Below, one piece after another: positions 2,722-21,307 of a DNA stretch of 21,307 nucleotides. The notes below the pieces were generated by a model that worked only from the letters and a program-made list of their open reading frames with translations, ran no database searches and was not told the DNA's origin. Where the stretch lies: positions 9,749-31,055 of IMG/VR virus record IMGVR_UViG_3300029319_000292; one strand, 5' to 3'. Within the stretch, counting starts at the first letter, position 1. The number at the start of each line of letters is the position of its first letter. Source of the DNA: a virus. A program made the position numbers and the translations under genes.

Positions 2722-2727
2722 AAAAAT

Positions 2728-2955: not shown

Positions 2956-2957
2956 CC

Positions 2958-5341: not shown

Positions 5342-5345
5342 TGTT

Positions 5346-6788: not shown

Positions 6789-6795
6789 TTAATGT

Positions 6796-6803
6796 AAGGA
6801 GGA
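6796..6803 (+). promoter_or_regulatory. Strong Shine-Dalgarno site of gp15
   Basis: AAGGAGGA nine bases before the ATG at 6813 is the best ribosome site in the window. It fixes the gp15 start. Confidence 0.75.
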
Positions 6804-6812
6804 TACTTAGTT

Positions 6813-7868
6813 ATGTTAGGCACATATTATTATCACGAAATTATTAGAAGAACCATTATTGCGTTTGGTACTCTTTTTAATAATATTGAGATTAAACATA
6901 AAACTCAAGCTGGAGGAGCGTTTTCTTCGGTAAAAGTTCCTATTGCTTATGGGCCTACTGAAAAATTTCTAGCAAGATTAGAGCAAAAACCAGATCCAAG
7001 AAAAAGGGTTTCTATAACATTACCAAGATTGGCATTTGAAATGGATAGTATTTCATATGATAATCAAAGAAAGGTTTCGACAATGCAAACCTTTAAAGCA
7101 GTTACCACTGATGGATCAAAGAGTGCAAGAAAAGTTTTTATGCCAGTTCCATATAATTTGGGATTTAAGTTATATGCGATGACACAATATAATGAAGATT
7201 CTTTACAGATTATTGAACAAATACTTCCATTCTTTCAACCATCATTTAACCTAACAGTAGATTTAGTTCAAGCAATTGGAGAGAAAAGAGATATTCCTAT
7301 GGTACTGGAAAACGTTTCATTTCAAGACAATTATGATAGTGGAATGGAAGAGAAAAGAGTTATTATATACACATTAGATTTTACTGCTAAGACTTATCTA
7401 TTTGGCCCTGTCGCTGATAGTGCTTCAGGATTAATCAAAAAAGTTCAGGTTGATTATGCAACTGATACTGCAAATAGAAAAGCAGCATCCAGACAACTCA
7501 GATACGTTGCTGAACCAAGAGCAATCAAAGATTATAATGATGATGCAGTAACTAAACTAGCGGAAGATATTACTCCAACTCAAAGGAAGTTCTTAGTTAC
7601 TGATGTTTCTAGTCTTGTAATTGATTCTTATATTGCAATTGGTGATGAATTAATGTTTATTAAAGAAATTACTGGAAATAAACTCACTGTAAGAAGAGGT
7701 GAGGATGGAACTACTGCAGATTCTCATATCAATAATGATCCAATAGATGCAGTAAATGCTGCAGATGATGCACTTATTGAACTTGGAGATGACTTTGGAT
7801 TTAGTGAACAACGTTTTGAATTTGGTGATGGCAGAATTTATAGTCCAACTAAGGGAGTTGACGTATGA
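6813..7868 (+). CDS. gp15: Tail terminator / sheath stabiliser gp15 with C-terminal extension
   Basis: A 351-residue protein. Residues 1-200 match the T4-like gp15 family (MLGTYYYHEIIRRTIIAFGT, FNNIEIKH, VPIAYGPTEKFLARL, ITLPRLAFEM, VPYNLGFKLYAM, QIIEQILPFFQPSF, YTLDFTAKTYLFGPV). In T4, gp15 (about 272 residues) caps the tail tube and contracted sheath and joins the tail to the neck. This copy is longer. After residue ~250 it carries an added module (271-305: SYIAIGDELMFIKEITGNK, then LTVRRGEDGTTADSH) similar to one in the large structural protein at the left edge. It is preceded by a late-promoter-like box and a very strong ribosome site. Its stop overlaps the gp16 start (ATGA). Confidence 0.92.
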   Translation: MLGTYYYHEIIRRTIIAFGTLFNNIEIKHKTQAGGAFSSVKVPIAYGPTEKFLARLEQKPDPRKRVSITLPRLAFEMDSISYDNQRKVSTMQTFKAVTTDGSKSARKVFMPVPYNLGFKLYAMTQYNEDSLQIIEQILPFFQPSFNLTVDLVQAIGEKRDIPMVLENVSFQDNYDSGMEEKRVIIYTLDFTAKTYLFGPVADSASGLIKKVQVDYATDTANRKAASRQLRYVAEPRAIKDYNDDAVTKLAEDITPTQRKFLVTDVSSLVIDSYIAIGDELMFIKEITGNKLTVRRGEDGTTADSHINNDPIDAVNAADDALIELGDDFGFSEQRFEFGDGRIYSPTKGVDV

Positions 7869-8299
7869 GCAAATTTGATGAAATAAATGATGCTTTAGAT
7901 ATTGAAGTATCAAATACACCTGAAGATAATAGTCTTAATAAAAAAAATGAATCATTAGATGTTAATGATCAAATTCAAAAGGATTATGAATACACTCGTG
8001 GAAATTTATATTCTTTAATTGAAAAAGGTCAAGAGGCTCTCAATGGAATTTTAGAAGTAGCAGAAGGTAGTCAACATGCAAGATCATATGAGGTTGCTGG
8101 TCAAATAATTAAGAGTGTAGGTGATACTACTGATAAGTTAATTGATCTACAGACTAAGATGAAGGAATTAAAAAAAGAAGAAAAATCAAAAGGGCCCTCT
8201 ACTGTTAATAATGCACTATTCGTTGGTTCAACATCAGAACTTTCTAAGTTATTGAAAAATGGTGTTCTAAATAATGATGACCAAGTTGAAGGGTCTTAA
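7865..8299 (+). CDS. gp16: Terminase small subunit gp16
   Basis: A 144-residue protein matching T4-like gp16 (about 164 residues in T4). The signature is DYEYTRGNLYSLIEKGQEAL followed by a helix (NGILEVAEGSQHARSYEVAG) and a coiled-coil part (TDKLIDLQTKMKELKKEEKS). gp16 forms a ring that helps recognise concatemeric phage DNA and regulates the gp17 motor and nuclease. The first ~38 residues are acidic and Asn/Asp-rich. The ATG overlaps the gp15 stop, with a GGGAG site upstream. In T4, gp17 follows directly. Here gp17 begins 12.6 kb downstream, although both remain on the same strand. Confidence 0.9.
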   Translation: MSKFDEINDALDIEVSNTPEDNSLNKKNESLDVNDQIQKDYEYTRGNLYSLIEKGQEALNGILEVAEGSQHARSYEVAGQIIKSVGDTTDKLIDLQTKMKELKKEEKSKGPSTVNNALFVGSTSELSKLLKNGVLNNDDQVEGS

Positions 8300-8305
8300 T
8301 ATATT

Positions 8306-10903
8306 ATGTCAGACGATTTAAGAGACTTTTTCTCAGAAATCTCAAAGTCGAAGAAAGAGAAGAAAAAGAAATTAAATGAAGCAAAAGAAGAACTCAAGTC
8401 TATTGTAGGAGATTTGGGTTTAGATTCCTTGTTTCAGGAATTTGGAAAAATAAAAAAAGAAGAAGTAGAAAAAAAGAAAAAACAAGAGAAAAAACTTGAG
8501 GCTTTTGAAAATTTCTTTTTTAATATAGATGATAAAAAAGAAGAACCAGAAGAAATTGAAGTTGAGGAAGAAATAATAGAGGTAGAGGAAAAATTAGAGG
8601 AACCTGAAGTTGTAGTTGGAGTTCCTGAAAATTTTAATGTTTCTTCTTTAGAAGAGGAAGAGGAAGAAGAAGTTATTGAGGAAGTTACAGAAGAAATAGA
8701 GTTTGAAGAAGAATTGGATGAAATAAAAGAAGATGCATCTTTAATAGAAAAGTCTTTAGGAATGCTTGCTGTTACTGATAATAATGAAGATCCATTAACT
8801 CCATTAGATAAAAAATTTGCAAGTTTTGAAGAATTTCAAAACCATTATTCTGTTTTAATTCAAAGAATACAACAACAATTATCCACTTTAGGTGGAGGTG
8901 GTGAAGTAAATTTCAAATATCTTGACGATGTTACGTGGAATGGATCTAGTGATAATGGAAAATTTTTAAAATATAATAGCACTACAGAAAAATTTGAATT
9001 TGCAACAGTATCTGGTGGTGGAGGAGGAGGTGGTAGTATTGCAGGTATTGATACGACAGGAACATCATTTTTTAATGAAATTAAAGTTGGTTCAGCAGTC
9101 ACTGTAAATTCGACTGGTATTGATGCTGGTGTTGGTATTATAACTGCAGCAACATTTTCTGGTAGATCTACAAGTTCCAATTTATCATTATTTTCATTCA
9201 TAACGAATAATAGTGATAATGATGAAGTAGTATTTCCAATATTTGTAGATGGTTCTACTACCTTTAGTTCTCAGGGTTTAGAGGTTGATGATGGATTTAT
9301 GTACAATCCATCCTCTGGAATATTATCTACTACTGCTTATAGTGGCACTATTAATACTGCTGCTCAGCCTAATATAACATCAGTTGGAACATTAGGTTCA
9401 TTAAACGTATCTGGTATAGGAACAATTGGTACTACTTTAGATGTTGGCACCAGTTTAGATGTTGGCACCAGTTTAGATGTTGGCACCAGTTTAAATGTTG
9501 GCACTATTTTAACTGTATCGGGAAATATAAATGCAAATGGAAATATAGTTGGTGATAGTGCAACAAATATATCTGGTATCAAAGATGTTCATGTGGGTGC
9601 TGGATTATCAGTTGTTGGTATCTCAACATTTAATGATCTTGTAAATGTTGGTGTTGGATTGACAGGAACTTCTATAAAAATATTCACAACTGGATTTCAA
9701 GTAAAAAATAGAAACAATAGCAAATTTGCTTTGACTACCATTCCAGGTTCTCATACCAGGTTATTCTATAATAATTCAAATAAGCTAGAAACTACAAATG
9801 AAGGTGTAATGGTCTTAGGTATTGCGTCCATCACTAATAGAATTGACATTAAAAGTGATGACGGAACATCGGGTAGAATTCATTTTTATTGTGAGTCAAA
9901 TAACGCACATTATTTAAATTTACAAGCACCAGCACATGCTGATTTTGGTGGAAATCCAACAGTACTTTTACCAAATTCAGCAGGAACACTGTTACTTGAT
10001 AATGGTAGCGGAGTAAGTCTTACTGGAATCGTAACATCTATTGTTGCTGGTGATAATGTTACTCTTTCTGGAGGGCCTACTGGAATAGTAACAGTGGGTG
10101 TTACCACAGAACAAGTTCAGGATATTGTAGGAGCAATGTTTTCAGGTAACACTGAAACAAACATCACTGCAACCTATCAAGATGATGATGGAACTATTGA
10201 TTTAGTTGCTTCAGGTGGTGGTAGTGGTTACACACATCCCAACCATTCAGGAGAAGTAACATCAACTGGTGATGGTGCAACCGTAATTGCAGATAACGTT
10301 GTAGACGAGGCAAATTTAAAAGTAAGTAATTCACCTGTGGACGGATACTTTTTACAGGCACAGTCAGGTGACACTGGTGGGTTAACATGGGCTGCAGCAT
10401 CTGGTGGTGGCGGTGGCAGTCCTGGTGGATCAAATACTCAAATTCAATATAATAACAGTAGTTCTTTTGGTGGTGTTGCTAATTTAACATTTGATGGTAG
10501 TGCACTAGGATTTTCTGGAATGGTAAAGGAAGGTGCTAATATAGTTGCAAATAAATTAAGTGCTGCTACTGATATTAATATTGAAGATGGGCATGTTCAT
10601 ATGTTTACTACAAATGAAACTGCTGATGCAACTCCAAATATTCGTTATAATTCATCAACAACATTAAATTCCAAAATGAGTGTTGGAGATATAATCACAC
10701 TTACGATAATAGCAGCAACTAATAATATTCAATACACTTATGATGAAGTAACTATTGATGGTGGTGCTCAAACTGAATTGTGGTTAGGTGGTGGAACTCC
10801 TCAAGGTGGTGGTACTGGAAATGATGTTTACACATATACCATAATCAAAACTGCTGATGCAACTTTTACAGTGATGATAAACGCAGTTAACTTTACTTCT
10901 TAA
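8306..10903 (+). CDS. Long modular tail-fibre-like protein (865 aa)
   Basis: The N-terminus (DDLRDFFSEISKSKKEKKKK, then LGLDSLFQEF) is the usual start of a class of marine T4-like fibre proteins. Residues ~15-155 are very rich in Lys then Glu and look helical or disordered. Residues 162-199 hold a conserved module (DPLTPLD.KF...HY...RIQQQLSTLGGGG) that is repeated in the 436-residue fibre. A DDV...LKYNSTTEKFE adaptor and a seven-glycine linker (237-243) follow. The shaft is built of beta repeats (VGIITAATFSG, VHVGAGLSVVGISTF) and includes four LDVGTS-type hexapeptides. Distal parts show YTHPNHSGEVTSTGDGAT and a C-terminal domain (TPNIRYNSSTTLNSKMSVGD, VYTYTIIKTADATF) common at fibre ends. It is probably a trimeric fibre for host contact. 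The ribosome site is weak. Confidence 0.8.
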   Translation: MSDDLRDFFSEISKSKKEKKKKLNEAKEELKSIVGDLGLDSLFQEFGKIKKEEVEKKKKQEKKLEAFENFFFNIDDKKEEPEEIEVEEEIIEVEEKLEEPEVVVGVPENFNVSSLEEEEEEEVIEEVTEEIEFEEELDEIKEDASLIEKSLGMLAVTDNNEDPLTPLDKKFASFEEFQNHYSVLIQRIQQQLSTLGGGGEVNFKYLDDVTWNGSSDNGKFLKYNSTTEKFEFATVSGGGGGGGSIAGIDTTGTSFFNEIKVGSAVTVNSTGIDAGVGIITAATFSGRSTSSNLSLFSFITNNSDNDEVVFPIFVDGSTTFSSQGLEVDDGFMYNPSSGILSTTAYSGTINTAAQPNITSVGTLGSLNVSGIGTIGTTLDVGTSLDVGTSLDVGTSLNVGTILTVSGNINANGNIVGDSATNISGIKDVHVGAGLSVVGISTFNDLVNVGVGLTGTSIKIFTTGFQVKNRNNSKFALTTIPGSHTRLFYNNSNKLETTNEGVMVLGIASITNRIDIKSDDGTSGRIHFYCESNNAHYLNLQAPAHADFGGNPTVLLPNSAGTLLLDNGSGVSLTGIVTSIVAGDNVTLSGGPTGIVTVGVTTEQVQDIVGAMFSGNTETNITATYQDDDGTIDLVASGGGSGYTHPNHSGEVTSTGDGATVIADNVVDEANLKVSNSPVDGYFLQAQSGDTGGLTWAAASGGGGGSPGGSNTQIQYNNSSSFGGVANLTFDGSALGFSGMVKEGANIVANKLSAATDINIEDGHVHMFTTNETADATPNIRYNSSTTLNSKMSVGDIITLTIIAATNNIQYTYDEVTIDGGAQTELWLGGGTPQGGGTGNDVYTYTIIKTADATFTVMINAVNFTS
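8789..8902 (+). repeat. Shared fibre module, copy 1
   Basis: This encodes residues 162-199 of the 865-residue fibre. The same 38-residue module lies at 12773-12886 in the 436-residue fibre. By eye 27 of 38 residues are identical. The DNA at 8864-8895 matches 12848-12879 with one mismatch in 32 bases. Confidence 0.85.
9436..9507 (+). repeat. Four tandem 18-base repeats encoding LDVGTS-type hexapeptides
   Basis: Three perfect copies of an 18-base unit (TTTAGATGTTGGCACCAG) at 9436-9453, 9454-9471 and 9472-9489 are followed by a fourth copy with three mismatches at 9490-9507. The unit is a multiple of three, so gain or loss of copies would lengthen or shorten the fibre shaft without a frameshift. 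Confidence 0.95.
9581..9619 (+). repeat. 39-base near-identical repeat shared between fibre genes, copy 1
   Basis: It matches 16173-16211 with a single mismatch. In both genes it encodes a KD[VI]HVGAGLSVVG segment. The surrounding DNA is much less alike. Confidence 0.9.
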
Positions 10904-10907
10904 TATT

Positions 10908-11741
10908 ATGCCTCTATTATCAGTACCTGCAACTCAAAATTCTTCTTCAAATAAAACTTCTGATATGTTGGTCAGAAATAAATTGAGGTATTATGCAGAT
11001 GCATATAATAGTGTAAGTAATGATGGTTCGGTAGTTGGTGGTAGCAATACCTATATGAGAAATGCGGTAAAAGGTAAATATATTTCAAGTATTTTAAATT
11101 ATAGAGCAACGATGTATAATGGTGCAGAGTGGGTAGATGATGGTGAAACTAGTTATTGGGATTTTGACGGCACAAATGATTATATGGCTTTAACAGGTAG
11201 TAGTAATGGATCAGATTGGGATTTGACAAAAACAAATGATGATGGTAGTAAATTGCAGTGGACTATTGAAGTTTGGTTATATCCAAATCGTACTAATTCT
11301 CAAGATTATTGGATAGGTAGATGGCAAAATAATAATGCTTATAAAAGTTTTCTTATGGGAATGTATGGGGCAAAAATGAGAACTTATCTATGGAGAGATG
11401 GTTTGGGAAGTTATAATTGGTATCAGGCAACTAACGATATTCCTTATCAAACTTGGGGTCATTATGCATGGACAGTAAATAATGATACTCAAGTTGCTAC
11501 AAATCCAAGAAGAATCCATCATTATTACAATTGTGTTCAACAAGGTGCTTGGGAAGAAAGTTCATTAACAATTTTTGATGGAGGTGCAAGAGGTACTTAT
11601 GTAGGAACTCCATTCTATTATTCTTGGTGTTATTATGGTAGAATAGCACAAATTAGACTTTATCATCGAAGATTATCTCTAAATGAATTGAAAAGAAATT
11701 ACAATAGAGATTGTGTCAAATTTGGATTAACAAAAGTATAG
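10908..11741 (+). CDS. LamG / concanavalin-like lectin-type protein, putative receptor binder
   Basis: A 277-residue protein rich in Trp and Tyr. It shows the order of a laminin-G-like jelly-roll domain: YWDFDGTNDYMALTG (residues 83-97), QWTIEVWLYP (117-126), a central WGHYAWTVNN, and the closing strand and helix YGRIAQIRLYHRRLSLNELK with RNYN (about 243-266). Domains of this type in phage tails and bacterial surface proteins bind sugars. The first 80 residues contain no recognisable domain but may attach the protein to a fibre. It begins four bases after the 865-residue fibre gene and is followed by a 98-residue gene. I infer that it is the receptor-binding tip of, or a partner to, that fibre. 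No signal peptide or catalytic motif is seen. Confidence 0.78.
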   Translation: MPLLSVPATQNSSSNKTSDMLVRNKLRYYADAYNSVSNDGSVVGGSNTYMRNAVKGKYISSILNYRATMYNGAEWVDDGETSYWDFDGTNDYMALTGSSNGSDWDLTKTNDDGSKLQWTIEVWLYPNRTNSQDYWIGRWQNNNAYKSFLMGMYGAKMRTYLWRDGLGSYNWYQATNDIPYQTWGHYAWTVNNDTQVATNPRRIHHYYNCVQQGAWEESSLTIFDGGARGTYVGTPFYYSWCYYGRIAQIRLYHRRLSLNELKRNYNRDCVKFGLTKV

Positions 11742-11750
11742 GTTTTTACT

Positions 11751-12047
11751 ATGAGTTTTGAAAATAGAAAATGGGTAATATTCAATTACTCCGAAGCATC
11801 AAAAATTGATTTCAGTCAAGTTTACGAAACTTCAATCAATACATTGAGAAAATCAATTGACGGTACACAAACATTTGTTAAATGGAATGGAGATACAGTA
11901 CCATCATCTGTTTCTGGTCTTGGAACTTATCTTGGCCCATACAATCACTCGGAAATGCTAGGAATTCTAACCACTTCAGAATGGACTGACGAAGATCCTA
12001 CAAGTAATCCAAATTCACCTCATATTCCAGATGATGAAAATGAGTGA
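11751..12047 (+). CDS. Small partner protein A1, downstream of the lectin-like gene
   Basis: A 98-residue protein that resembles the 89-residue product at 19741-20010. Shared points are an N-terminal R[KR][WY][VI]I strand, [ST]EA[SD]KID, VK[WY]N and GPY followed by an 11-12 residue stretch ending in [TK].[WE]-like TSEW/TKDW. The C-terminus (DEDPTSNPNSPHIPDDENE) is acidic and probably disordered. Both genes lie immediately downstream of a putative receptor-binding protein, which is the usual place for fibre assembly chaperones such as T4 gp38 and lambda Tfa. There is no sequence match to those families that I can see, so the chaperone idea is inference from position and size. Confidence 0.68.
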   Translation: MSFENRKWVIFNYSEASKIDFSQVYETSINTLRKSIDGTQTFVKWNGDTVPSSVSGLGTYLGPYNHSEMLGILTTSEWTDEDPTSNPNSPHIPDDENE

Positions 12048-12057
12048 TTTCTGATAG

Positions 12058-12065
12058 AATAAATA
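12058..12065 (+). promoter_or_regulatory. Late promoter-like box AATAAATA
   Basis: AATAAATA lies in the 50-base gap between the 98-residue gene and the 436-residue fibre gene, 32 bases before the ATG. It has one difference from TATAAATA. This is one of the longest gaps in the window, which supports a transcription start here. Confidence 0.5.
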
Positions 12066-12097
12066 ACTAAAATACTTAATATGATAAAAAATAATTA

Positions 12098-13408
12098 ATG
12101 CCTCTCAAGAAACCAGGTGATTTTTTTCAAACGAAAGAAGTTGTTAAAATAAAAGAAGAAATTGATCAATTGGTTAATCCCAAATTGAGTTCAATTTCTG
12201 ATGCTTTTGATAATTATAAGGAGAAGGTAAATAAATTTGAACTACTTTCAGGAGTAATTGAAGATGTACAAAAAGAATTAAAAGATATTAAGGTTGAAGT
12301 TTATAAAAAAGAGGAACTAGAAGAAACTGTAATAAAATCTACACTTTTACTAGAGAAAAAAATAAAAGAATTAAAAGAAGACGTAGAAAAGGAAAGTAAA
12401 AATGTTTTAAATATCTCCTCAATCAAGTATAGAAAACTTGAGGAGGATATTAAGAGATATCACGACAAAGCACTTTTTGCAATTGATAATGAATTTGAAA
12501 AGATTGAGGAAGGGCAAAAATCTTACGACTCAAAATTAGCAAATTTAAAAGCACAAATATTTAAACCTGATGGAATAGAAGATTTAAAAAAATTAAATGA
12601 AAAAGTTGAAAAAGATTTAATTGAGTTTCAAGAAGATTTAGCTGAGTTTCAAAAAATAGATTATGACATTTCTGGAAAAATAAAACAAATAGAAGAAATG
12701 TTCGTTAAGTTTAATGAACAAAAAGTCTTAAATGAAAATGTCATAACAGAACCTCCATCTACAAATAATGATGATCCACTAACTCCTTTGGATCAAAAAT
12801 TTGTAACTTTTGAACAGTTATCAGAACACTATCGAATATTCATCAATAGAATACAACAACAATTATCCACATTAGGTGGTGGAGGTGCTGTCCGTATTCA
12901 AGATATGGACGATATTGATCTATCAACTGCAAAAGTAGATAACAAATTTTTAAAATATGACTCTGCTACTAATAAGTGGGTAGGTTCCGATGCTAGTGGT
13001 GGTGCTGGAACTGTTAATATTATAGATGATACAAGTCCACAATTAGGAGGAAATCTTGATTTAAATTCAAAAAATATTACTGGCACTGGTAATATTGATA
13101 TTACTGGTACTGTTACGGCTACAGATATTAACTCAGCATCTGATATTAAATTAAAGAAAAATATAAAAGCAATTAAAAATCCAATATCAAAAATAATGGA
13201 AATAGAAGGTGTGTCTTTTAATTGGAAATCTAATAATAAACCATCACTTGGAGTTACTGCTGACCATTTACAAAATATTTTACCAGAGTTAGTTAAAGAA
13301 GATGATATAAAAAGTGTTAACTATAATGGACTAGTTGGACTTCTCATAGAGTGTGTAAAAAATCAACAGAAGCAAATAGACGAACTTAAAGATCAACTAA
13401 ATAATTAA
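12098..13408 (+). CDS. Coiled-coil fibre protein with C-terminal peptidase S74 chaperone domain
   Basis: A 436-residue protein. Residues 1-215 are a long charged coiled coil starting PLKKPGDFFQTKEVVKIKEE, typical of marine phage fibre stalks. Residues 226-263 carry the same module as the 865-residue fibre. A short DMDDIDLS...FLKYDSATNKW adaptor and beta segment follow. From about 346 there is a peptidase S74 domain (SDIKLKKNIKAI, IMEIEGVSFNWK, GVTADHLQNILPELV, VNYNGLVGLLIECV, then a terminal coil). In this family the domain trimerises and folds the fibre, then cuts itself off using a Ser-Lys dyad. Ser348 and Lys353 here have the expected spacing. Cleavage before Ser348 would leave a ~347-residue stalk. 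A late-promoter-like box precedes it. Confidence 0.87.
   Translation: MPLKKPGDFFQTKEVVKIKEEIDQLVNPKLSSISDAFDNYKEKVNKFELLSGVIEDVQKELKDIKVEVYKKEELEETVIKSTLLLEKKIKELKEDVEKESKNVLNISSIKYRKLEEDIKRYHDKALFAIDNEFEKIEEGQKSYDSKLANLKAQIFKPDGIEDLKKLNEKVEKDLIEFQEDLAEFQKIDYDISGKIKQIEEMFVKFNEQKVLNENVITEPPSTNNDDPLTPLDQKFVTFEQLSEHYRIFINRIQQQLSTLGGGGAVRIQDMDDIDLSTAKVDNKFLKYDSATNKWVGSDASGGAGTVNIIDDTSPQLGGNLDLNSKNITGTGNIDITGTVTATDINSASDIKLKKNIKAIKNPISKIMEIEGVSFNWKSNNKPSLGVTADHLQNILPELVKEDDIKSVNYNGLVGLLIECVKNQQKQIDELKDQLNN
12773..12886 (+). repeat. Shared fibre module, copy 2
   Basis: This encodes residues 226-263 of the S74 fibre and is the same length (114 bases) as copy 1 at 8789-8902. The most conserved part, encoding RIQQQLSTLGG, is nearly identical at DNA level. 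Confidence 0.85.
13396..13403 (+). promoter_or_regulatory. Possible late promoter box ACTAAATA
   Basis: ACTAAATA lies over the last codons of the S74 fibre gene, 35 bases before the ATG at 13439. It has two differences from TATAAATA and is weaker than the other candidates. It is kept because it falls at a cassette boundary. The 30-base gap that follows is more G+C-rich than usual here, and no other signal is recognised in it. Confidence 0.3.
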
Positions 13409-13438
13409 AATTACCCAGTGGACACACGAAGACGGTAG

Positions 13439-15238
13439 ATGGCAATTAAAATATCTGGAAGTACTATCATTGATGATAGTAGAAATATAGTAAATGCTGG
13501 TATAGTAACAGCATCATCTTTTAGTGGTGATGGATCTAATCTTACTGGTGTTGGTGGTCAAGTTACAAACATAATCTATGTCACAAAAGACGGAAACGAT
13601 TCAAACGACGGACTCAAAGTTAGTACCGCAAAAGCAACAATCAAAGGAGCAGTCGCAATTGCGTCAGAGGGATCTGTTATTAAAGTTAGTGCTGGAGTTT
13701 ATGTAGAAAATAATCCAATTGAACTTCCTTCACAAATAAGTATTATCGGAGACAGTTTAAGAGAAGTATCAGTCACTCCACAAAATGCAAATCAAGATTT
13801 AATATATGTTTCACCAGGAGATTATATTAGTGATATATCATTTACTGGATCTTTAAGTGCAGGTAAAGCAGTATTTGCTTTTAATCCAAATAAACCAAGA
13901 TATTCTGCACAGTCACCTTATATTCGTAACTGTACTAATTTTATTCAAAATAGTATTGGTATGAAGATAGATGGGAATCATGTAATAGGGCCATTCAAAA
14001 GTATGGTTACAGATTCCTATACACAGTATAACGCAAATGGTATTGGAGTTTCTATAACAAACGAGGGTTATGGGCAATTAGTTTCTATATTTACAATCAA
14101 CCCAGATATATCAATATTTACTGGATCTGGTGGAATGTGTGATTTAACAAACTCAAACTCATCATTTGGTAATTTTGGATTAGTTTCTGATGGAGTTGGG
14201 CCTAGAAAATTTACTGGTATTGTTACTGCTGCAGCTACAGAAAACTCAGCTGAATTTAAAATAGATTTATCTTCTCCTACATTTAATGTTTCTAATTTTG
14301 AATATGATCATACAACAGGACTAACAACTGTCACCACATCTTCAAATCATAATTTCACAGTGGGAATGGGAGTAACTTTATCAAGTATTGTTCTATCCTG
14401 TGCTTATGGTAATAAGACATATCCTGATGGTGATGTTGGATTTGTTTTTGAAGTTAAGTCTTTACCAGCAGCAAATAAATTTACAACACATGTTGGAATA
14501 TCTACTCTAGCACATTCTTATGTTTCTGGTGGAACAGCAAAAACAAAAGTGGTAAGACCCTTTGATGGACAAGTTGTTTACTTTGATGAATTATATCAAT
14601 CAGTCAAAAAATTTACTATAACAAATGGTGGATCTGGATATACTTCAGCACCAACAGTTACTATTGCATCTCCATCAGAATCTTGGGGAATTCCAGCTAC
14701 TGCTATTGCAACAATTGAAAATGGATCAGTATCAGAAATAACAATTGTTTCTGAAGGTAGAGGATATACATCCACACCGTCTGTTTCTTTTTCTGGTGGT
14801 GGAGGATCATCTGCTGCAGCATCAGCAGTAATGATACCTCAGTATTTTGTAGTAGAAAAATCAACTCCAATTTCAAATGGAATATCAACAGTTACATTTA
14901 CAGAGAATATTCCTTTTGCTGTAGGTGTTGGAACAACAGTTCCTTTCTTCAAACAAAGTAGAATCCTTGCTTCAAGTCATTCTTTTGAATACATAGGATC
15001 AGGAACAGATTTAGTTAACTCACTTCCTTCAAGAGGAGGAGTTGCAATTCAAGAAAATGAAATTGATGATCGAAATGGTGGACTGACTATTTTTACAAGC
15101 ACTGATCAGACAGGTAATTTCCGAATTGGTGATGGTGTTATTATCAATCAACAAACTGGAACTATTTCTGGAGATTCTTATACTAAAAGTTTATTTTCAA
15201 CCATGACACCATTTATTTTAGCACTGGGAGGAGATTAA
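13439..15238 (+). CDS. Beta-helix tail-fibre-like protein (pectin-lyase fold type)
   Basis: A 599-residue protein. The N-terminus (IKISGSTIIDDSRNIVNAGI, then VTASSFSGDGSNLTG) is a common fibre attachment segment. Residues 47-114 (YVTKDGNDSNDGLKVSTAKA, GSVIKVSAGVYVENNPIELP, SIIGDSLREVSVTP) are the first coils of a right-handed parallel beta-helix of the kind in phage tailspikes and pectin lyases. Two GxGYTSxP motifs occur at about 397-409 and 438-450, like those inserted in gp14. The C-terminus (GDGVIINQQTGTISGDSY, ending FILALGGD) fits the family. No catalytic residues for polysaccharide cleavage can be assigned by eye, so binding is as likely as degradation. The last codons contain the ribosome site of the next gene. 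Confidence 0.82.
   Translation: MAIKISGSTIIDDSRNIVNAGIVTASSFSGDGSNLTGVGGQVTNIIYVTKDGNDSNDGLKVSTAKATIKGAVAIASEGSVIKVSAGVYVENNPIELPSQISIIGDSLREVSVTPQNANQDLIYVSPGDYISDISFTGSLSAGKAVFAFNPNKPRYSAQSPYIRNCTNFIQNSIGMKIDGNHVIGPFKSMVTDSYTQYNANGIGVSITNEGYGQLVSIFTINPDISIFTGSGGMCDLTNSNSSFGNFGLVSDGVGPRKFTGIVTAAATENSAEFKIDLSSPTFNVSNFEYDHTTGLTTVTTSSNHNFTVGMGVTLSSIVLSCAYGNKTYPDGDVGFVFEVKSLPAANKFTTHVGISTLAHSYVSGGTAKTKVVRPFDGQVVYFDELYQSVKKFTITNGGSGYTSAPTVTIASPSESWGIPATAIATIENGSVSEITIVSEGRGYTSTPSVSFSGGGGSSAAASAVMIPQYFVVEKSTPISNGISTVTFTENIPFAVGVGTTVPFFKQSRILASSHSFEYIGSGTDLVNSLPSRGGVAIQENEIDDRNGGLTIFTSTDQTGNFRIGDGVIINQQTGTISGDSYTKSLFSTMTPFILALGGD
15226..15234 (+). promoter_or_regulatory. Shine-Dalgarno site of the 113-residue gene
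   Basis: GGGAGGAGA lies in the last codons (LGGD) of the beta-helix fibre gene, eight bases before the ATG at 15243. It suggests strong and coupled translation of the small partner. Confidence 0.65.
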
Positions 15239-15242
15239 GAAA

Positions 15243-15584
15243 ATGGCATTAGCACTTAACGTATTTAAAACTGTTACTCAAATTGTTCCAACGGATCCTG
15301 TTGGTATTTTTACAGCATCAACTGGTTACTCTGGTGTTGTTCTTTTAGCATCTGCAACAAACATCGGTGCAAACACACAGACAATATCATTTTCACATGT
15401 AAGATCGGTTGCTGGAATTGCAGTTACTACTGAAATATTAAAAGAATATCCGATAGCAGCAAATGATTCTGCTAATTTATTGTCTGGAAAACTTGTTCTA
15501 GAAAGTGGTGATATAATGAAAGTTTCAGCAAGTAATTCGACAGATATTAAATTCATATCAAGTGTTTTAGAAACATTAAATTAA
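15243..15584 (+). CDS. Small beta-sandwich partner protein B1, downstream of the beta-helix fibre
   Basis: A 113-residue, strand-rich protein (YSGVVLLASATNIGANTQTI, EILKEYPIAANDSANLLSGK, LVLESGDIMKVSASNSTDIK, then FISSVLETLN). The pattern of neutral strands, then PIAANDSANLLSGKLVLESGD, then a final strand resembles the 129-residue product at 17557-17946 (DLIVVPNTTQIISSKD..LEEGQTLETQVQ). This kind of small domain is common beside fibre genes in marine phages. A strong ribosome site overlaps the end of the fibre gene and the next fibre gene follows at once, so it is probably a virion or assembly partner of one of them. The function is not known. Confidence 0.68.
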   Translation: MALALNVFKTVTQIVPTDPVGIFTASTGYSGVVLLASATNIGANTQTISFSHVRSVAGIAVTTEILKEYPIAANDSANLLSGKLVLESGDIMKVSASNSTDIKFISSVLETLN

Positions 15585-17534
15585 ATGGCAAAATATATTA
15601 GCAACAGATTAAAAAATTTAACAATAGGATTGGATTCTTATAGTGAGAATTTAACCAGTCTTAATATAATTGGTGATGTTAAAGTTGGTGCTGGTGTCAC
15701 TATCAGTTCTTCTGCTGGAATTGTAACTGCAGTAGGCTTTAAAAAAGTAGGTGGAACTAATAGTCAATTTATGATGGCTGACGGTTCTGTTAATTCATCA
15801 ACATTTCTTACAGCAGAATCTGATACATTAGACACCATATTAAATAGAGGAAACACCACCACCAAAAGTTTAAGCGTAGGAGTTGCAACTGCTTCACGAT
15901 TAGAAATATCTTCCACATTTCCAAGAATACTATTAACTGATACTGATAATAATGATGATTTTTCTATAGATAATGCAAATGGTACTTTTCGAGTTAGAGA
16001 TAGAACAAATTCTGCTGACAGATTTGAAATAGCATCAAATGGAAAAGCAACATTACATAATGATGTAGAAATTGAAGGCGGTTTAGAGGTAGATGGTAAT
16101 ATATCAGTTGGAGGAACTATTACATATAATGATGTTACAAATGTAGATTCAATTGGTATTATAACTGCCCGAAAAGATATTCATGTGGGTGCTGGATTAT
16201 CAGTTGTTGGTGTATCGACATTCACTGGTCTAATTGATGCAAATGGTAATTTAGATGTAGATGGTACAAGTCTCTTTAGAGATAATATTACGGTTTCAAA
16301 TGCGGCTCCAAAAATATTTCTGACTGATAGTAATGATACTCCAGATTTTGAAGTAGGTAATTTTAATGGAGGTTTTCGTATTCGTGACACAACAAGTAAT
16401 AACAATAGATTGACTATTGATGAAAATGGTCACGCATCGATTGGTGGTAATCTTGCTGTTGGTGGTGCTCTTACTGTTACTGCTAATATAAACACTAGTA
16501 ATTCATTAATCGTAGCAGGTTCATTAGATATAGATGGTCATATTGTTGGTGATAATTCAACAAACATATCTGGAATCGCATCTGTAACAGCAACATCATT
16601 TCACGGATCAGGTGCAAACTTAACTGATGTTATGACAACTTCTGGTGGAAGTGTAGGTGATCTAAGTGTTAGTGGAATAGCAAGTGTAGGTATTGGAACT
16701 ACAGGGGATACTTTTACAGGAAAGGTAGATCTCTTCCATGAAGGCGATATAAAATTAAGAACCACTCCAGCTGGAGTACAAGTTGTAGGAATTTTAAGTG
16801 CAACTTCTCTAGATTTTACTGGTGCTGAAGGTGCATTTAGTGACGATTTATTACTTCAAGGTGGATCTGCAAACGCATTATGGGATAGATCAGAATCTTA
16901 TTTACAATTTAATGATGGTGCCAAGGCAGTATTCGGAACTGATGTATCAGATGGAGATTTAGAAATTTTTCATAGTGGTAGCCACAGTTATATAAGTGAA
17001 AATGGCACTGGAGATTTATTCATAATTACTGGTGCTGTTGGATTGGGTAGTACTGCTATTAAAATTAGTGATGGTTCATCAACACTGTATTATCAAGGAG
17101 CAGAAAGATTAAAAACTACATCTACAGGGATTACTCTGACTGGAACTTTAACTGCTGATATTGAAGGTAATGCTACTACTGCAGACAAAGCAACTGATTT
17201 AGCAATAAATGCAACACAACAATTAGTATTACAAACTGGAAATAATGCTACTGATGTTTTAGCATCTGGTACTGCAGGATATGTTCTTCAATCTAATGGA
17301 TCTGGTAGTGCACCTACTTGGGCAGCTACAGCACCTGCAAACGCCATTACTGGAATTACGATACGAGAAGATGGTGGATTAGTAGGAACTGCTAATAGTG
17401 TAAGCACTATCAATTTTACTGGGGCAGGAGTAGGCGTTACATTTACAAATCCAGTTGCTGGTATTGCTACTGTTACCATAGCTGGTGGCGGTGGAGATTC
17501 AAGTGCTGTAATGCTGTCCATGATTTTCGGATAA
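15585..17534 (+). CDS. Repeat-rich tail-fibre-like protein (649 aa)
   Basis: Short attachment start (AKYISNRLKNLTIGLDSYSE), then beta repeats: SAGIVTAVGFKKVG, GIITARKDIHVGAGLSVVG, and a duplicated module (residues 105-156 and 236-286) of the form P.I.LTD...DF......G.FR[VI]RD....R..I..NG.A. The distal half has LFHEGDIKLRTTPAGVQVVG, GTDVSDGDLEIFHSGSHSYI, GAERLKTTSTGITLTG and SGTAGYVLQSNGSGSAPTW, all standard marine phage fibre modules. A glycine patch (AGGGGDSS) and a hydrophobic MLSMIFG form the end. Likely a trimeric fibre shaft. No S74 chaperone domain is attached. The start directly follows the TAA of the 113-residue gene, with a weak ribosome site. Confidence 0.8.
   Translation: MAKYISNRLKNLTIGLDSYSENLTSLNIIGDVKVGAGVTISSSAGIVTAVGFKKVGGTNSQFMMADGSVNSSTFLTAESDTLDTILNRGNTTTKSLSVGVATASRLEISSTFPRILLTDTDNNDDFSIDNANGTFRVRDRTNSADRFEIASNGKATLHNDVEIEGGLEVDGNISVGGTITYNDVTNVDSIGIITARKDIHVGAGLSVVGVSTFTGLIDANGNLDVDGTSLFRDNITVSNAAPKIFLTDSNDTPDFEVGNFNGGFRIRDTTSNNNRLTIDENGHASIGGNLAVGGALTVTANINTSNSLIVAGSLDIDGHIVGDNSTNISGIASVTATSFHGSGANLTDVMTTSGGSVGDLSVSGIASVGIGTTGDTFTGKVDLFHEGDIKLRTTPAGVQVVGILSATSLDFTGAEGAFSDDLLLQGGSANALWDRSESYLQFNDGAKAVFGTDVSDGDLEIFHSGSHSYISENGTGDLFIITGAVGLGSTAIKISDGSSTLYYQGAERLKTTSTGITLTGTLTADIEGNATTADKATDLAINATQQLVLQTGNNATDVLASGTAGYVLQSNGSGSAPTWAATAPANAITGITIREDGGLVGTANSVSTINFTGAGVGVTFTNPVAGIATVTIAGGGGDSSAVMLSMIFG
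15897..16442 (+). repeat. Internal duplicated fibre module (two ~50-residue copies)
   Basis: Copy 1 is at about 15897-16052 and copy 2 at about 16290-16442, separated by a GIITA/VGAGLSVVG linker. Both copies encode an LTD..DF......G.FR[VI]RD.T motif. The similarity is clear in protein but weak in DNA, so the duplication is old. Confidence 0.75.
16173..16211 (+). repeat. 39-base near-identical repeat shared between fibre genes, copy 2
   Basis: It matches 9581-9619 in the 865-residue fibre gene with one mismatch; 32 bases at the 3' side are identical. Confidence 0.9.
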
Positions 17535-17537
17535 ATA
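17530..17537 (+). promoter_or_regulatory. Late promoter-like box GATAAATA
   Basis: GATAAATA overlaps the end of the 649-residue fibre gene, 19 bases before the ATG at 17557. An AGGAGA ribosome site lies at 17545-17550, so the transcript leader would be very short. Confidence 0.55.
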
Positions 17538-17556
17538 AACACACAGGAGATTAATA

Positions 17557-17946
17557 ATGACTGCACCTAATTTAAAAAATCCAACAACTATCATAGGTAA
17601 AACCGAGTGTGTGGGAATTGGCACTACAGCGAAGGTTGGTATTCTGACAAACTCTGGAGCATCTGATAAAGTTTTAAAGATAAATTCTGTTTTTGCTGCA
17701 AATGTCGGTGACAGTAATATGTTTGTTAACGTAGCAATTGCAAATACTGTTGGCACAGCATTTACTACTCATATTGCAAAAGATTTAATTGTTGTACCAA
17801 ACACCACACAGATTATTAGTTCAAAAGATACATATTTTTATTTGGAAGAAGGTCAAACATTAGAAACACAAGTTCAAATAGCTGGAACAAGTTTTTTAAG
17901 TGCTAATGGCGTAGAATTTGTAATTGGTTATGAGGATATATCATGA
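17557..17946 (+). CDS. Small beta-sandwich partner protein B2, downstream of the repeat fibre
   Basis: A 129-residue, strand-rich protein with a short glycine/threonine-rich start (IIGKTECVGIGTTAKVGILT). It is followed by a domain similar to the 113-residue product: KINSVFAANVGDSNMFVNVA, IAKDLIVVPNTTQIISSKDT, FYLEEGQTLETQVQ and a closing VEFVIGYEDI. It has its own late-promoter-like box and a good AGGAGA ribosome site. Its stop overlaps the start of the 588-residue gene by four bases (ATGA), so the two are probably coupled. A structural partner or decoration protein of a fibre is the likeliest role. Confidence 0.7.
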   Translation: MTAPNLKNPTTIIGKTECVGIGTTAKVGILTNSGASDKVLKINSVFAANVGDSNMFVNVAIANTVGTAFTTHIAKDLIVVPNTTQIISSKDTYFYLEEGQTLETQVQIAGTSFLSANGVEFVIGYEDIS

Positions 17947-19709
17947 CCTATAGAAGAAGAGGAATTATAGGATATGGAAATGAAATTGAAAAAGTAAAAT
18001 ATGGTCATTCTGGAATGGTTACGCATGAAGATAGAAATTTTCAGGCATCACATTTTCAAAATGGAAGTAGATACGAAGGTTCAACTGAGTCTTGGGTTGT
18101 TACAAAAAACGTAGCAGATATTATAGGTAGCGGAGCAAGTCCAAGTGCTGTGGCTATATCTTCTAATGGTAAACATCTGTATATTGGTAGATCAAACAAC
18201 AGTACTTGTTACTTATTTCATTACACATTATCAACACCGTTTGATATTGAAAGTAGAGTTTTTGTTCATAGTTTTACAACAAATTCATTTGGTGTGGGTT
18301 CTATAGAAAGTATTGTAGTTTCTCCAGATGGTCAATATATGTGGGCTTCCAGTTACTTTGATAAATTACACACATTCTGCATGTCAACACCATTTTATAT
18401 TAGTAGCATATCTTATGTGGGAAAAAGAGAAAGAAAAAATTGGTATAGTAATACAAATTCTACTCTTGGCTTTGATCTAAATCCAGCTGGAATTTTCTTT
18501 CATCCTGATGGAACTAAAGGATATATTATGGGAAATTATAATGATCGTCTTCATCAATACGATTTAACAACAGCATTTGATGTGACTACAATGACTCATA
18601 ATCAATATGAAGGTGTGAATAGTATTAATTCAGATCCATATGGACTTTGGTTTAAACCTGATGGTTCTTCTTTCTTTTTTATAGGAAAAGGTGGAACTGA
18701 TTCTGTTTATAAAAGAGATATGACTACTGCTTGGGATATATCGACACAACAGGACGGTGGTAGTTGGGAGATCTCTCCAAATTACAATTACTTTTCTATT
18801 GCATTTAGTTATGATGGAACCAAACTTTATTTGGGTGCAGATGATCAAAAAATTAGACAATGGTCTTTGAGCACTGCTTGGGATATGTCTAGTACATTTA
18901 CAGATGATGGGTGGACTTTAGGTAGTTTTGGTTTTGGTGGTACCGTGGTTGGGATGGCTTTCAATAGTGATGGAACGGAGTTTGCGGGTCAAGCGAGTGC
19001 TAGTGACAATTACGTACCATTTAAGTTAGATACTCCATATGATCTTAGTGGTGGACATACCTATCTTTCTGGCAAATTTCAAAATGTGGGAGATAATCCT
19101 ATAGGAATATATTATCCAATGGGACTTGCCACTTTGGGAAAAGAAAAAATGGTTATACTTAATGATAATGGTAATAATCAGTATTATGGTAGCACTGTAA
19201 ATTCATTTTCTTTAAAAGAAAATGATAATGTTTTTTCTTTAGAATTTGGATATGTAAAAACTACAGATATTCCCAGTGCAAGTGGTAACAGTGATCCTAG
19301 AGGTTTTTTATGGAAGTATGATGGGACAAAGTATTATGTTTTTGATGAGAATGATAGGGGAATATACCAATTTAGTACGTCTGTTCCTTTTTTAGCTACT
19401 AAACTGGTAAGTACTTTCGAAAGTTTTAAGACAACTTATAGTGGTGGTTCAACAGATCCAAAGGCTTTTGCGATGAGTTTGAATGGTAAAAATATGTGGT
19501 TTATGGATACTAATACTGATAGAATATATCAATTCGATTTAAATACCCCTTGGGATATTAGTGATGGAGTTACCGACAGAGGATGGTCTGTTTGTTTCTA
19601 TGAACAGGAGGGTACTCCAAGAGGAGTATGCTTAGTTCCAACTGGAAATAAATTGTTAATGGTTGGAGAAAATACTGATAATTTGGTTGAATTTTCAATA
19701 CCTTCATAA
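17943..19709 (+). CDS. Beta-propeller-like repeat protein, putative receptor-binding tip
   Basis: A 588-residue protein. After a ~50-residue start (TYRRRGIIGYGNEIEKVKYG, then HEDRNFQASHFQNGS), the rest consists of about nine full repeats and a partial tenth. Each unit reads roughly P.G..[FV]S.DG...Y..[GD]..D..[IL]YQ[YFW].L.T.[WF]D[IV]S. The signature lines include LFHYTLSTPFDI, LHQYDLTTAFDV, VYKRDMTTAWDI, IRQWSLSTAWDM, YVPFKLDTPYDL and IYQFDLNTPWDI. The last strand (LVEFSIPS) could close a ring with the first, as propellers do. No enzyme active site is recognised. Its position between the two small partner genes and inside the fibre block suggests a host-binding or virion surface protein. An alternative is an elongated beta-solenoid. 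Confidence 0.75.
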   Translation: MTYRRRGIIGYGNEIEKVKYGHSGMVTHEDRNFQASHFQNGSRYEGSTESWVVTKNVADIIGSGASPSAVAISSNGKHLYIGRSNNSTCYLFHYTLSTPFDIESRVFVHSFTTNSFGVGSIESIVVSPDGQYMWASSYFDKLHTFCMSTPFYISSISYVGKRERKNWYSNTNSTLGFDLNPAGIFFHPDGTKGYIMGNYNDRLHQYDLTTAFDVTTMTHNQYEGVNSINSDPYGLWFKPDGSSFFFIGKGGTDSVYKRDMTTAWDISTQQDGGSWEISPNYNYFSIAFSYDGTKLYLGADDQKIRQWSLSTAWDMSSTFTDDGWTLGSFGFGGTVVGMAFNSDGTEFAGQASASDNYVPFKLDTPYDLSGGHTYLSGKFQNVGDNPIGIYYPMGLATLGKEKMVILNDNGNNQYYGSTVNSFSLKENDNVFSLEFGYVKTTDIPSASGNSDPRGFLWKYDGTKYYVFDENDRGIYQFSTSVPFLATKLVSTFESFKTTYSGGSTDPKAFAMSLNGKNMWFMDTNTDRIYQFDLNTPWDISDGVTDRGWSVCFYEQEGTPRGVCLVPTGNKLLMVGENTDNLVEFSIPS

Positions 19710-19710
19710 A

Positions 19711-19718
19711 GATAAATA
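19711..19718 (+). promoter_or_regulatory. Late promoter-like box GATAAATA
   Basis: GATAAATA lies just after the stop of the propeller-like gene, 22 bases before the ATG at 19741. It has one difference from TATAAATA and sits in a 31-base gap. Confidence 0.55.
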
Positions 19719-19740
19719 TGTTAACTAAACCTGAAAAATT

Positions 19741-20010
19741 ATGATTGAAACATCAGTTCCAGAATGTGATACAAGAAGATATATAATCGTATCAAAAACA
19801 GAGGCAGACAAAATTGATAGACAAGATCTTGTCGGCAACTGTTATCCAATGGTAACTTATACTGCAGATGAATCTAAGGTATTAGTAAAATATAATAGTG
19901 GAATAGGAACTCCAAATTTTCTTTCTACTTTATCTGGAATACAAGGGCCATATGATGTAATTGGTATATCAACTATTGTTACTAAAGACTGGTTAGGTTC
20001 ATCTGTCTAA
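19741..20010 (+). CDS. Small partner protein A2, downstream of the propeller-like gene
   Basis: An 89-residue protein that resembles the 98-residue product at 11751-12047: RRYIIVSKTEADKIDRQDLV against RKWVIFNYSEASKIDFSQV, VLVKYN against TFVKWN, and GPYDVIGISTIVTKDW against GPYNHSEMLGILTTSEW. It lacks the acidic tail of the other copy. Its own late-promoter-like box precedes it, but a weak ribosome site does not help choose the start; the ATG at 19741 is the first in frame after the promoter. As with A1, it directly follows a putative receptor-binding gene. A dedicated assembly or attachment partner is the working idea. Confidence 0.68.
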   Translation: MIETSVPECDTRRYIIVSKTEADKIDRQDLVGNCYPMVTYTADESKVLVKYNSGIGTPNFLSTLSGIQGPYDVIGISTIVTKDWLGSSV

Positions 20011-20013
20011 ATA
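20006..20013 (+). promoter_or_regulatory. Late promoter-like box TCTAAATA
   Basis: TCTAAATA overlaps the stop of the 89-residue gene, 23 bases before the chosen ATG at 20037. It is the same octamer as the box before gp15. Confidence 0.5.
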
Positions 20014-20019
20014 TTATTG

Positions 20020-20027
20020 TGGAGAAG
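20020..20027 (+). promoter_or_regulatory. Shine-Dalgarno site that decides the start at 20037
   Basis: TGGAGAAG lies nine bases before the ATG at 20037. A GTG at 20019 is in the same frame, but it would place this site inside the gene and lacks a ribosome site of its own. Confidence 0.7.
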
Positions 20028-20036
20028 ACAAAAAAA

Positions 20037-20894
20037 ATGAAAACTTTTTCAGGATTTAAAAAGGCCGCATCTGATGCGATGAGAAAGGTCGTAAAGAAAA
20101 AAGAAGAAGAGAGAAAACCTCAAAAGGCAATGGATGCTGGTGCAAGATTAAGAAGAAAGAAACAAAGGCAAGAATATAGAGCAAAAGTATCTGAGTTTAT
20201 TCCTGATGAATTAAAAGACCATTATGAAATTGATGAGAGTAGTTTAAGTCGTATTAAAAGTAAATCAGATAAGGGAGGAATGGCTGTCCTCTCAGCAACT
20301 CGTACTGGCAAATCCTCTAAAGAAAATAAAGCAAGAAACAAACAGTTAGACAAAGACATTCGTGGTCGTGGTCTTCCTGGTGCTACTAAAGCAAAAGGTA
20401 AATGGGAAGGTGGAAGCGAACGTAGTCACATTGTTTCTTCTGGAAAGAAGGGTAAAAGAAAGTTTAAGAAAGAGATTAAAAAGTTAGGTAAGAAGTATGA
20501 TCAAGATGCGGTTATTGTTCAAACTAAAAAAAGTGCTACATTAAGTGCAACTAGAAAAGGTGGATTGGGTAAGAAGAAGAGAACAGGTATAGGCAAATTT
20601 AAACCTCAAGGCAAATCACCAGAGGGTGTGACACAAATCAAAGGTAAAACATTTACTTATGAATCATATCTTCGTGTTCAAGAAAGAGGTAAGACTTATA
20701 TGATAGTTGCAAACTGGAGAGGAAGACTTGTTAATGTTCAGATGTTCTTTGCTAAGTTCTCAAGACCAACAAAACCTGAAGTTGTAGCAGAAATTCAAAA
20801 AATTTATCCTGGTGCAATCGTATTGTACTTTAATCCAGCAATAAAAGACCCAACCAAACCATTACTGTTTGCAGGAAAAGAAAATCAAAAGTAA
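20037..20894 (+). CDS. Highly basic protein directly upstream of gp17, DUF3293-like middle region
   Basis: A 285-residue, Lys/Arg-rich protein starting MKTFSGFKKAASDAM, a start style common in marine T4-like phage proteins. Residues ~10-55 form a charged helix. The middle (AVLSATRTGKSSKENKARNK, LDKDIRGRGLPGATKAKGKW, SHIVSSG, FKKEIKKLGKKYDQDAVIVQ) has the order of conserved points that I know from DUF3293-type proteins: a strand plus S-A-R, EN.AR...L, then a Y/DQDAV segment. The C-terminal part (TYMIVANWRGRLVNVQMFFA, RPTKPEVVAEIQKIYPGAIV, LYFNP) looks like a small separate alpha/beta domain. It may be a virion or nucleic-acid-binding protein. The function is unknown and the DUF3293 link is tentative. 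Confidence 0.72.
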   Translation: MKTFSGFKKAASDAMRKVVKKKEEERKPQKAMDAGARLRRKKQRQEYRAKVSEFIPDELKDHYEIDESSLSRIKSKSDKGGMAVLSATRTGKSSKENKARNKQLDKDIRGRGLPGATKAKGKWEGGSERSHIVSSGKKGKRKFKKEIKKLGKKYDQDAVIVQTKKSATLSATRKGGLGKKKRTGIGKFKPQGKSPEGVTQIKGKTFTYESYLRVQERGKTYMIVANWRGRLVNVQMFFAKFSRPTKPEVVAEIQKIYPGAIVLYFNPAIKDPTKPLLFAGKENQK

Positions 20895-20901
20895 TTAAAT
20901 T

Positions 20902-21307
20902 ATGTCTGATAATGTTTATCTTGGTAATCCGAACCTTAAAAAGGCTAATACTCCTATGGAGTTTGATGCCAAACAGATTTCTGAATTTGTAAAATGTAAA
21001 AATGATCCAGTATATTTTGCAAAAAAATATGTTCAAATTGTGAATTTGGATGAGGGTCTTGTTCCTTTTGAACCATACAAATTTCAAGAAAAGTTAATAA
21101 AAAGATTTCATAAAAATCGTTTTAATATATGTAAGATGCCTCGTCAGACTGGTAAGTCTACAACCGTGGTTGCTTATCTATTGCATTATGCTGTTTTTAA
21201 TGATAGTGTAAATATTGGTATACTTGCAAACAAAGCTGCAACTGCAAGAGAATTGTTGGGTAGGTTACAAACTGCCTATGAAAATCTTCCAAGATGGATG
21301 CAGCAAG
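20902..21307 (+). CDS. gp17: Terminase large subunit gp17, N-terminal part (runs off the right edge)
   Basis: The ATG at 20902 opens a frame that stays open to the window end, giving 135 residues. They match the N-terminal ATPase domain of T4-like gp17, the DNA packaging motor and headful nuclease (about 610 residues in T4). FEPYKFQEKLIKRFHKN (about 56-72) is the Q-motif-type region, NICKMPRQTGKSTTVVAYLL (75-94) contains the Walker A loop with Lys85, and NIGILANKAATARELLGRLQ (104-123) is the strand and helix after it. Walker B and the nuclease domain lie outside the window. It works with gp16, whose gene is 12.6 kb upstream. No strong ribosome site is visible in the seven-base gap. Confidence 0.95.
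   Translation, partial: MSDNVYLGNPNLKKANTPMEFDAKQISEFVKCKNDPVYFAKKYVQIVNLDEGLVPFEPYKFQEKLIKRFHKNRFNICKMPRQTGKSTTVVAYLLHYAVFNDSVNIGILANKAATARELLGRLQTAYENLPRWMQQ

Follow-up and report, generated by a model that had tools for sequence, protein, structure and literature searches.

A probable tail-fibre module with two cassette slots between the terminase genes of a cyanomyovirus-related phage

The terminase genes gp16 and gp17 of a Kyanoviridae-related phage, represented by the IMG/VR virus record IMGVR_UViG_3300029319_000292 (31,055 bp), are separated by a 12.6-kb block that is probably a tail-fibre module, located in a known gp16–gp17 hot-spot and encoding two separately anchored fibres with exchangeable head cassettes. 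The analysed stretch is the final 21.3 kb of the record (21,307 nucleotides; hereafter, the window), in which gp13, gp14, gp15, and gp16 lie consecutively at positions 4517–8299. The block is bordered on the left by gp16, the terminase small subunit gene (7865..8299, + strand; phrog_445, E-value 9e-53), and on the right by the N-terminal part of gp17, the large subunit gene (20902..21307, + strand; phrog_5989, E-value 5e-41), which is cut by the contig end. The module is thus placed within the T4-like structural operon, and the eleven open reading frames (ORFs) of the block, named a–k, are all on the same (+) strand with intergenic spacing of at most ~50 bp. The phage is assigned as Kyanoviridae-related because the closest annotated relatives of gp17 and gp15 are Synechococcus/Prochlorococcus cyanomyoviruses (gp17 N-terminus, at most 86%; gp15, at most 58% over the full length). 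A preliminary description of this DNA had claimed such a 12.6-kb separation, which is borne out by the border coordinates 8299 and 20902, and had counted ten genes, mostly of the adhesin type; genes a–j (8306–20010) are indeed of the fibre, head, or small-partner type, but the ORFs number eleven and k is not an adhesin.

Scaffold, slots, and cassettes of the block

The long block is present in five contig lineages, and the first alignment comprised four of them: the window, G001 (a 44-kb contig near-identical to L183), G002, and G003 (L179). Comparison of their sequences shows a constant frame, kept in the same order, that consists of the N-terminus of a, d (47–88%), e (69–91%), f (75–76%), and the N-terminus of g, together with two variable places, slot 1 after a and slot 2 after g. 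Each slot carries one cassette composed of a fibre tip, a head protein, and a small partner. Slot 1 is occupied by a LamG cassette in the window and G003, by a cassette designated C (proteins of 119, 263, and 87 residues) in G001, L214, and L266, and by a 935-residue long fibre with a 63-residue protein in G002. Slot 2 contains a propeller cassette (h–i–j) in the window and G002, a diverged propeller with h in G003 and L214, and a LamG cassette in G001 and L187, the last of which has its d–e–f–g–b–c module located away from gp16/gp17. The earlier notion of a receptor-binding cassette array is retained in that nearly all of the genes are of the fibre or adhesin type, but the block appears to contain two fibre sockets, each holding a single head cassette, not ten parallel adhesins.

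Fibre 1 is encoded by a (8306..10903; 865 residues), a tail fibre according to PHROG (phrog_30742, E-value 2e-32; phrog_5906, E-value 9e-26). Its N-terminal anchor (MSDDLRDFFSEI..) is followed by a coiled coil and a docking domain (residues ~143–235), and the C-terminal tip domain is formed by phrog_5906 (residues ~707–864); among relatives the N-terminus is kept and the C-terminus is swapped. The docking domain is common to a and the scaffold fibre d (PLKKPGDFF..; 12098..13408; 436 residues), the two genes containing a 153-nt repeat (75%). The C-terminus of d is an S74 intramolecular chaperone (Pfam Peptidase_S74, E-value 9e-13) and resembles the long tail fibre distal subunit in PDB entry 6f45 (E-value 2e-11). 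The conserved scaffold fibre or hub e (13439..15238; 599 residues; tail fibre phrog_17885, E-value 8e-184), 90–91% identical in G001 and G002, opens a recurrent e–f–g trio, which continues with the small beta-type scaffold protein f (15243..15584; 113 residues; 75–76% in three lineages) and the fibre-like g (15585..17534; 649 residues) of fibre 2, with a conserved N-terminus (residues ~1–110) and a swappable C-terminus that ends in GGGGDSSAVMLSMIFG. Repeats of the type GYTSxPTVxI are shared by residues ~387–506 of e and the middle of gp14 (5346–6785), and are also found in baseplate/virion PHROG families.

The head of slot 1 is the LamG/concanavalin-like b (10908..11741; 277 residues), which matches Pfam Laminin_G_3 (E-value 1.8e-7) above the cut-off (31.8 versus 27.6 bits), and the LamG cassette is closed by the small partner c (11751..12047; 98 residues; no family), always found after b in four lineages. 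The propeller cassette of slot 2 begins with a small adaptor, h (17557..17946; 129 residues), weakly related to f (profile match, 6e-4) and with homologues beside i in G002 (89%) and G003 (53%). It is followed by the beta-propeller-like head i (17943..19709; 588 residues), showing weak WD40/THOC3/SGL matches, of which that to the WD40 profile is sub-threshold (24.8 against a cut-off of 27); the G003 homologue of i scores stronger. The AlphaFold model of i is poor (predicted local distance difference test score, pLDDT, 51), and its top PDB matches in Foldseek are all propeller proteins at a global template-modelling score below 0.25; a fold claim from this model was dropped, the model being too poor. 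A role of i as a host-range gene common to cyanophage isolates was likewise discarded, the matches being only distant and mostly from roseophages. The cassette ends with the small partner j (19741..20010; 89 residues), 100% identical in G002. As a member of the c family, j is homologous to c (28% over 78 residues, E-value 1e-5), and each of the two ends a different cassette; as a guess, such a protein might cap the structure or assist in its assembly. A usable model of c was obtained (pLDDT 80), with fold matches limited to uncharacterised phage proteins. In contig L181 (7789–9047), a c-family small protein follows a 338-residue protein downstream of the portal gene; the partner family is therefore not limited to the gp16–gp17 interval. 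Sequence searches gave no useful PDB homologue of e, c, b, or k.

The tip forms part of the cassette. In the window and G003, the phrog_5906 domain is found at the end of a, and in G001 and L187 at the end of g; it moves between a and g with the LamG cassette. When h–i follow, g ends with GGGG-DSSAVMLSMIFG, and when cassette C follows, a ends with GGGG-TVDLLEMMLFT. The N-termini of the heads match the tips, with MSPLxSVPSV after phrog_5906 tips and RRGxIGxG after h; in the isolate P-SSM7, a glycine-rich protein follows a phrog_5906-type tip and approximately retains MSPLxSVPSV. The 119-residue protein of cassette C was considered as an f/h homologue, with which its position and length agree, but was rejected on unsupportive profile scores, and profile comparison found no homology between the 87-residue end protein of cassette C and c or j.

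Exchange of cassettes and sites without the block

A swap is seen between the close strains L214 and G003, whose DNA is 94.5% identical on the upstream side of slot 1 (over 2,048 bp) and 98.4% identical on its downstream side (over 8,133 bp), with ~1.65–1.7 kb of unrelated DNA (different cassettes) between these flanks. The right junction lies just past the partner gene and the left one within the fibre shaft. The cassette in L214 is the slot-1 cassette of G001 (80/61/86% identity), and is also found in L266 (100/97/94%). Exchange between slots is suggested by the LamG cassette, because the tip of G003 (slot 1) is 85–86% identical to those of G001 and L187 (slot 2) and only 63% identical to that of the window (slot 1), and b ranks in the same manner (51% for slot 1–slot 2 versus 34% for slot 1–slot 1). 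Possibly, such exchange between slots could be served by homologous recombination at a 72-nt shaft repeat (D4; 82%), which has one copy in a (9568..9639, + strand) and its partner in g (16160..16231, + strand). Metagenome assembly chimeras could in principle give similar patterns, since every full-block contig is an assembly and fibre shafts are repetitive; this explanation is extremely unlikely, because cassette C recurs in the independent contigs G001/L183, L214, and L266, the LamG cassette in the window, G001, G003, and L187, and the propeller cassette in the window and G002, and because the junctions coincide with gene-module borders.

Sites without the block were also found. The gene k directly follows gp16 in L003–L006, whose gp16 is the most similar (85–89%), and gp16–k–gp17 with nothing else is seen in L003 and in L007, a 75% gp16 relative. 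Therefore, the block is either an addition between gp16 and k or was lost in these relatives, and k, judged from its genomic context, is an ordinary resident gene of the interval. The preliminary description had proposed that its view would fail if close relatives carried the same genes as an invariant core, which is not what is seen: the site is empty in L003–L007 and swapped in G001, G002, G003, and L214.

Fibre number, virion location, and related systems

The isolate S-SCSM1 suggests a link between the block and the virion. Its gp026 (at the end), gp027, and gp028 match, in order, e (piecewise, 48–61%), f (45%), and, judging by position, g, and gp028 ends in a d-like S74 domain; all three are marked as virion proteins in the record. 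For S-SCSM1, 45 virion proteins are reported from mass spectrometry (PMC9602691). The location of the e–f–g core in the virion is supported by homology to the annotated S-SCSM1 proteins. The fusion of d-like and e-like parts in one ORF in SynMITS9220M01, L084, L122, and L133 suggests that d and e physically associate. In S-SM2, Bellamy, and P-TIM68, too, the gene that comes next after gp16 starts with an a-type anchor (L.xFFsxIgxakKEK), and since a-type fibres stand alone after gp16 in these isolates, without e–f–g, a is taken as an independent fibre type.

These data also bear on a simpler explanation, in which a single ordinary distal tail-fibre locus has been displaced between the terminase genes and encodes one branched fibre complex, not two independent head positions. 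We regard it as a real, though less than even, possibility: the e–f–g trio is common and in most cases found at another place (~215 kb in P-SSM2 and 99 kb in AG-345-L05), d–e–f–g–b–c of L187 has no gp16/gp17 nearby, and the d/e fusions would fit one complex, but a is equipped with a separate N-terminal anchor and docking domain, and occurs without e–f–g in the three isolates named above. As to the heads, it is rather unlikely that b and i are enzymes (a glycan depolymerase or lactonase-like) instead of binding heads. The LamG/concanavalin A-like fold includes glucanases and the G003 homologue of i matches Lactonase, but family profile searches found a catalytic family neither for b nor for i of the window, and the architecture corresponds to that of tip proteins.

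Several observations weigh against the presence of two fibres with exchangeable heads. The virion location comes from homology and pertains only to e, f, and g, with the individual S-SCSM1 proteins tied to the mass-spectrometry set via the record annotation; b, c, h, i, and j have no homologue among the isolate intervals compared. The propeller assignment of i is made with low confidence from weak profile matches and a poor model (pLDDT 51), and c has neither a PDB match nor a structural match beyond uncharacterised phage proteins. Moreover, the identities of c carry no slot-exchange signal (window–G003, 72%; G003–G001, 71%), and the contigs are metagenomic fragments.

In the fibres of the T2/S16/PP01 type, the fibre gene gp37 is followed by gp38, which encodes the specificity-determining tip adhesin as a separate protein. 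The block is similar in that its head genes are directly downstream of fibre genes (a–b and g–h–i), an order kept in relatives, and in the resemblance of the d end to PDB entry 6f45. In contrast to gp37–gp38, the block encodes two fibres that differ from each other and have separate heads, and additional small partners, and no homologue of the gp38-family adhesin was found, b and i instead matching LamG and propeller profiles. The branched tailspike/fibre systems of Ackermannviridae and the T5-like phage DT57C carry several receptor-binding proteins per particle via shared docking domains. By description, the block would resemble them in its shared docking domains and more than one head; no depolymerase domain was found in the block. 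S-SCSM1 also has an e–f–g trio within its 9.65-kb inter-terminase interval (gp026–gp031; PMC9602691), but its fibre line is single, e there being part of a long fusion protein, and no a-type second fibre, LamG cassette, or propeller cassette was detected in gp026–gp031. Hypervariable islands of fibre/lectin type are also known in marine phages as the pelagimyophage host recognition cluster (PMC7029224) and metaviromic islands (PMC3909814); the pelagimyophage cluster, which also encodes glycosyltransferases, is flanked by VrlC and gp14, whereas the block here is located after gp16, and slot-wise exchange is not described for either in the accessible text of those reports. No description of the two-slot cassette logic was found in the literature searched, with subscription papers such as Millard 2009 lying outside it.

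Altogether, the two fibres would use a single type of docking domain as their anchor; fibre 1 would be a, and fibre 2 would be built on d, e, and f and lengthened by g. Each fibre would end in a plug, and the gene(s) directly downstream would encode a separate head for this plug and a small partner: in slot 1, the phrog_5906 tip of a may carry the LamG head b with its partner c, and in slot 2, the hydrophobic tip of g may be followed by the adaptor h, the propeller head i, and the partner j. The exchange unit would be the cassette (fibre tip, head, and partner), with head replacement by recombination at a left-hand point within the fibre shaft and a right-hand point just past the partner gene, and a given cassette type can sit in either slot. 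The heads presumably bind glycans or proteins of the host surface, c and j may act as assembly partners, and both heads may be present on one particle. The suggestion that one phage carries several adhesins is supported to the extent that the gene content looks able to provide more than one head, whereas we infer their simultaneous display. A further-reaching version, in which one virion shows two different heads and a shared pool of head cassettes recombines freely between sockets and phages, so that host recognition would become combinatorial with no need for diversity-generating retroelements, is put forward tentatively.

The inter-terminase hot-spot and its neighbourhood

The last ORF before gp17, k (20019..20894; 291 residues), contains an S-adenosylmethionine (SAM)-lyase family domain (Pfam PF23780, E-value 1.2e-15; residues 90–213), overlapped by DUF3293, and a separate small C-terminal domain (residues ~215–288). 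This C-terminal domain alone is found as an 87-residue protein directly after gp16 in L179 (G003; 6010–6273) and L214 (399–662), and in L214, where the interval is complete, there is no k upstream of gp17. The predicted SAM-degrading, possibly anti-restriction, role of k beside the terminase is worth attention. In L179, gp15 is divided into two ORFs (4546–5600), owing to a frameshift or a sequencing error. Upstream of gp13 in the window (2383–4337), there is a second fibre-type set of three proteins: one of 112 residues, homologous to an L-shaped tail fibre assembly protein; one of 75 residues, whose G001 homologue and the docking domain of a have a motif in common; and a fibre-like one of 459 residues. 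The window has no tRNA that would point to tRNA-associated integration; the late-promoter motifs TATAAATA and CTAAATA are no more frequent than by chance, and scans for sigma-70 promoters and terminators gave results near those of shuffles. A PF03420 search across the record had no match anywhere and was uninformative.

Among 76 other complete gp16–gp17 intervals in IMG/VR loci, a sample favouring short gaps owing to contig sizes, the gap ranges from 15 bp to 7.3 kb (median, 0.76 kb), and it reaches 11.6–11.8 kb in related contigs; no longer gap than that of the window was thus observed, and it marks the upper limit of a continuous range. Homologues of the window fibre genes occur in 17 of the 19 intervals of at least 3 kb, and in none of the 49 shorter than 1.2 kb. 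Among isolates, the interval consists of one small gene in S-SSM7, and amounts to ~3.8 kb in P-SSM2, ~4.2 kb in S-SM2 and P-TIM68 (a tail fibre and other genes), 6.2 kb in SynMITS9220M01, 8.0 kb in S-B05 (fibre and virion proteins annotated), 9.65 kb in S-SCSM1 (six genes, five annotated as virion proteins), and ~10 kb in S-PRM1, S-CAM9, and S-8S56 (PTOX, gnd, and zwf or an unnamed dehydrogenase). The region between gp16 and gp17 has been listed among the four hot-spots of Synechococcus phages, with credit to Millard 2009 (Sullivan 2010, PMC3037559), and a review puts the g15–g18 interval at 4–14 genes and gives these metabolic roles (PMC2984593). Accordingly, the remark of the preliminary description on a variable region familiar mainly for host-derived metabolic genes is to be corrected in that such genes are not its only known content: the hot-spot is published, and fibre content at the site is not new, given the fibre/virion genes annotated in S-SCSM1, S-SM2, P-TIM68, and S-B05.

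The mixed content of this known hot-spot, including PTOX, zwf, and gnd, would also accord with the block being ordinary hyperplastic-region content, that is, loosely accumulated morons with no functional unity. This is very unlikely, considering that every gene from a to j is of the fibre, head, or small-partner type, that the gene order is kept in five lineages with intact ORFs and tight spacing, and that fibre-gene homologues prevail in the longer intervals as described above. The block shares with the hyperplastic region of cyanomyoviruses (gp16–gp17/g15–g18) its place in the same structural operon and a content that varies between relatives, including empty sites. That region has been described mainly with metabolic and hypothetical genes (4–14), whereas a–j comprise only fibres, heads, and partners, no metabolic gene being found among the block ORFs by Pfam and PHROG families, and the fixed scaffold with two exchange slots sets the block apart from the region as described.

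Little is known of the receptors and adhesins of marine T4-like phages. The present comparison gives the loosely defined 'hyperplastic region' an anatomy of sockets, plugs, and cassettes, by which b, i, and the 263-residue head of cassette C become direct candidates for receptor-binding tips. If true, cassette swapping would plausibly allow ocean viruses to alter which cells they recognise, and head exchange would offer a testable route to host-range change in ocean phages.

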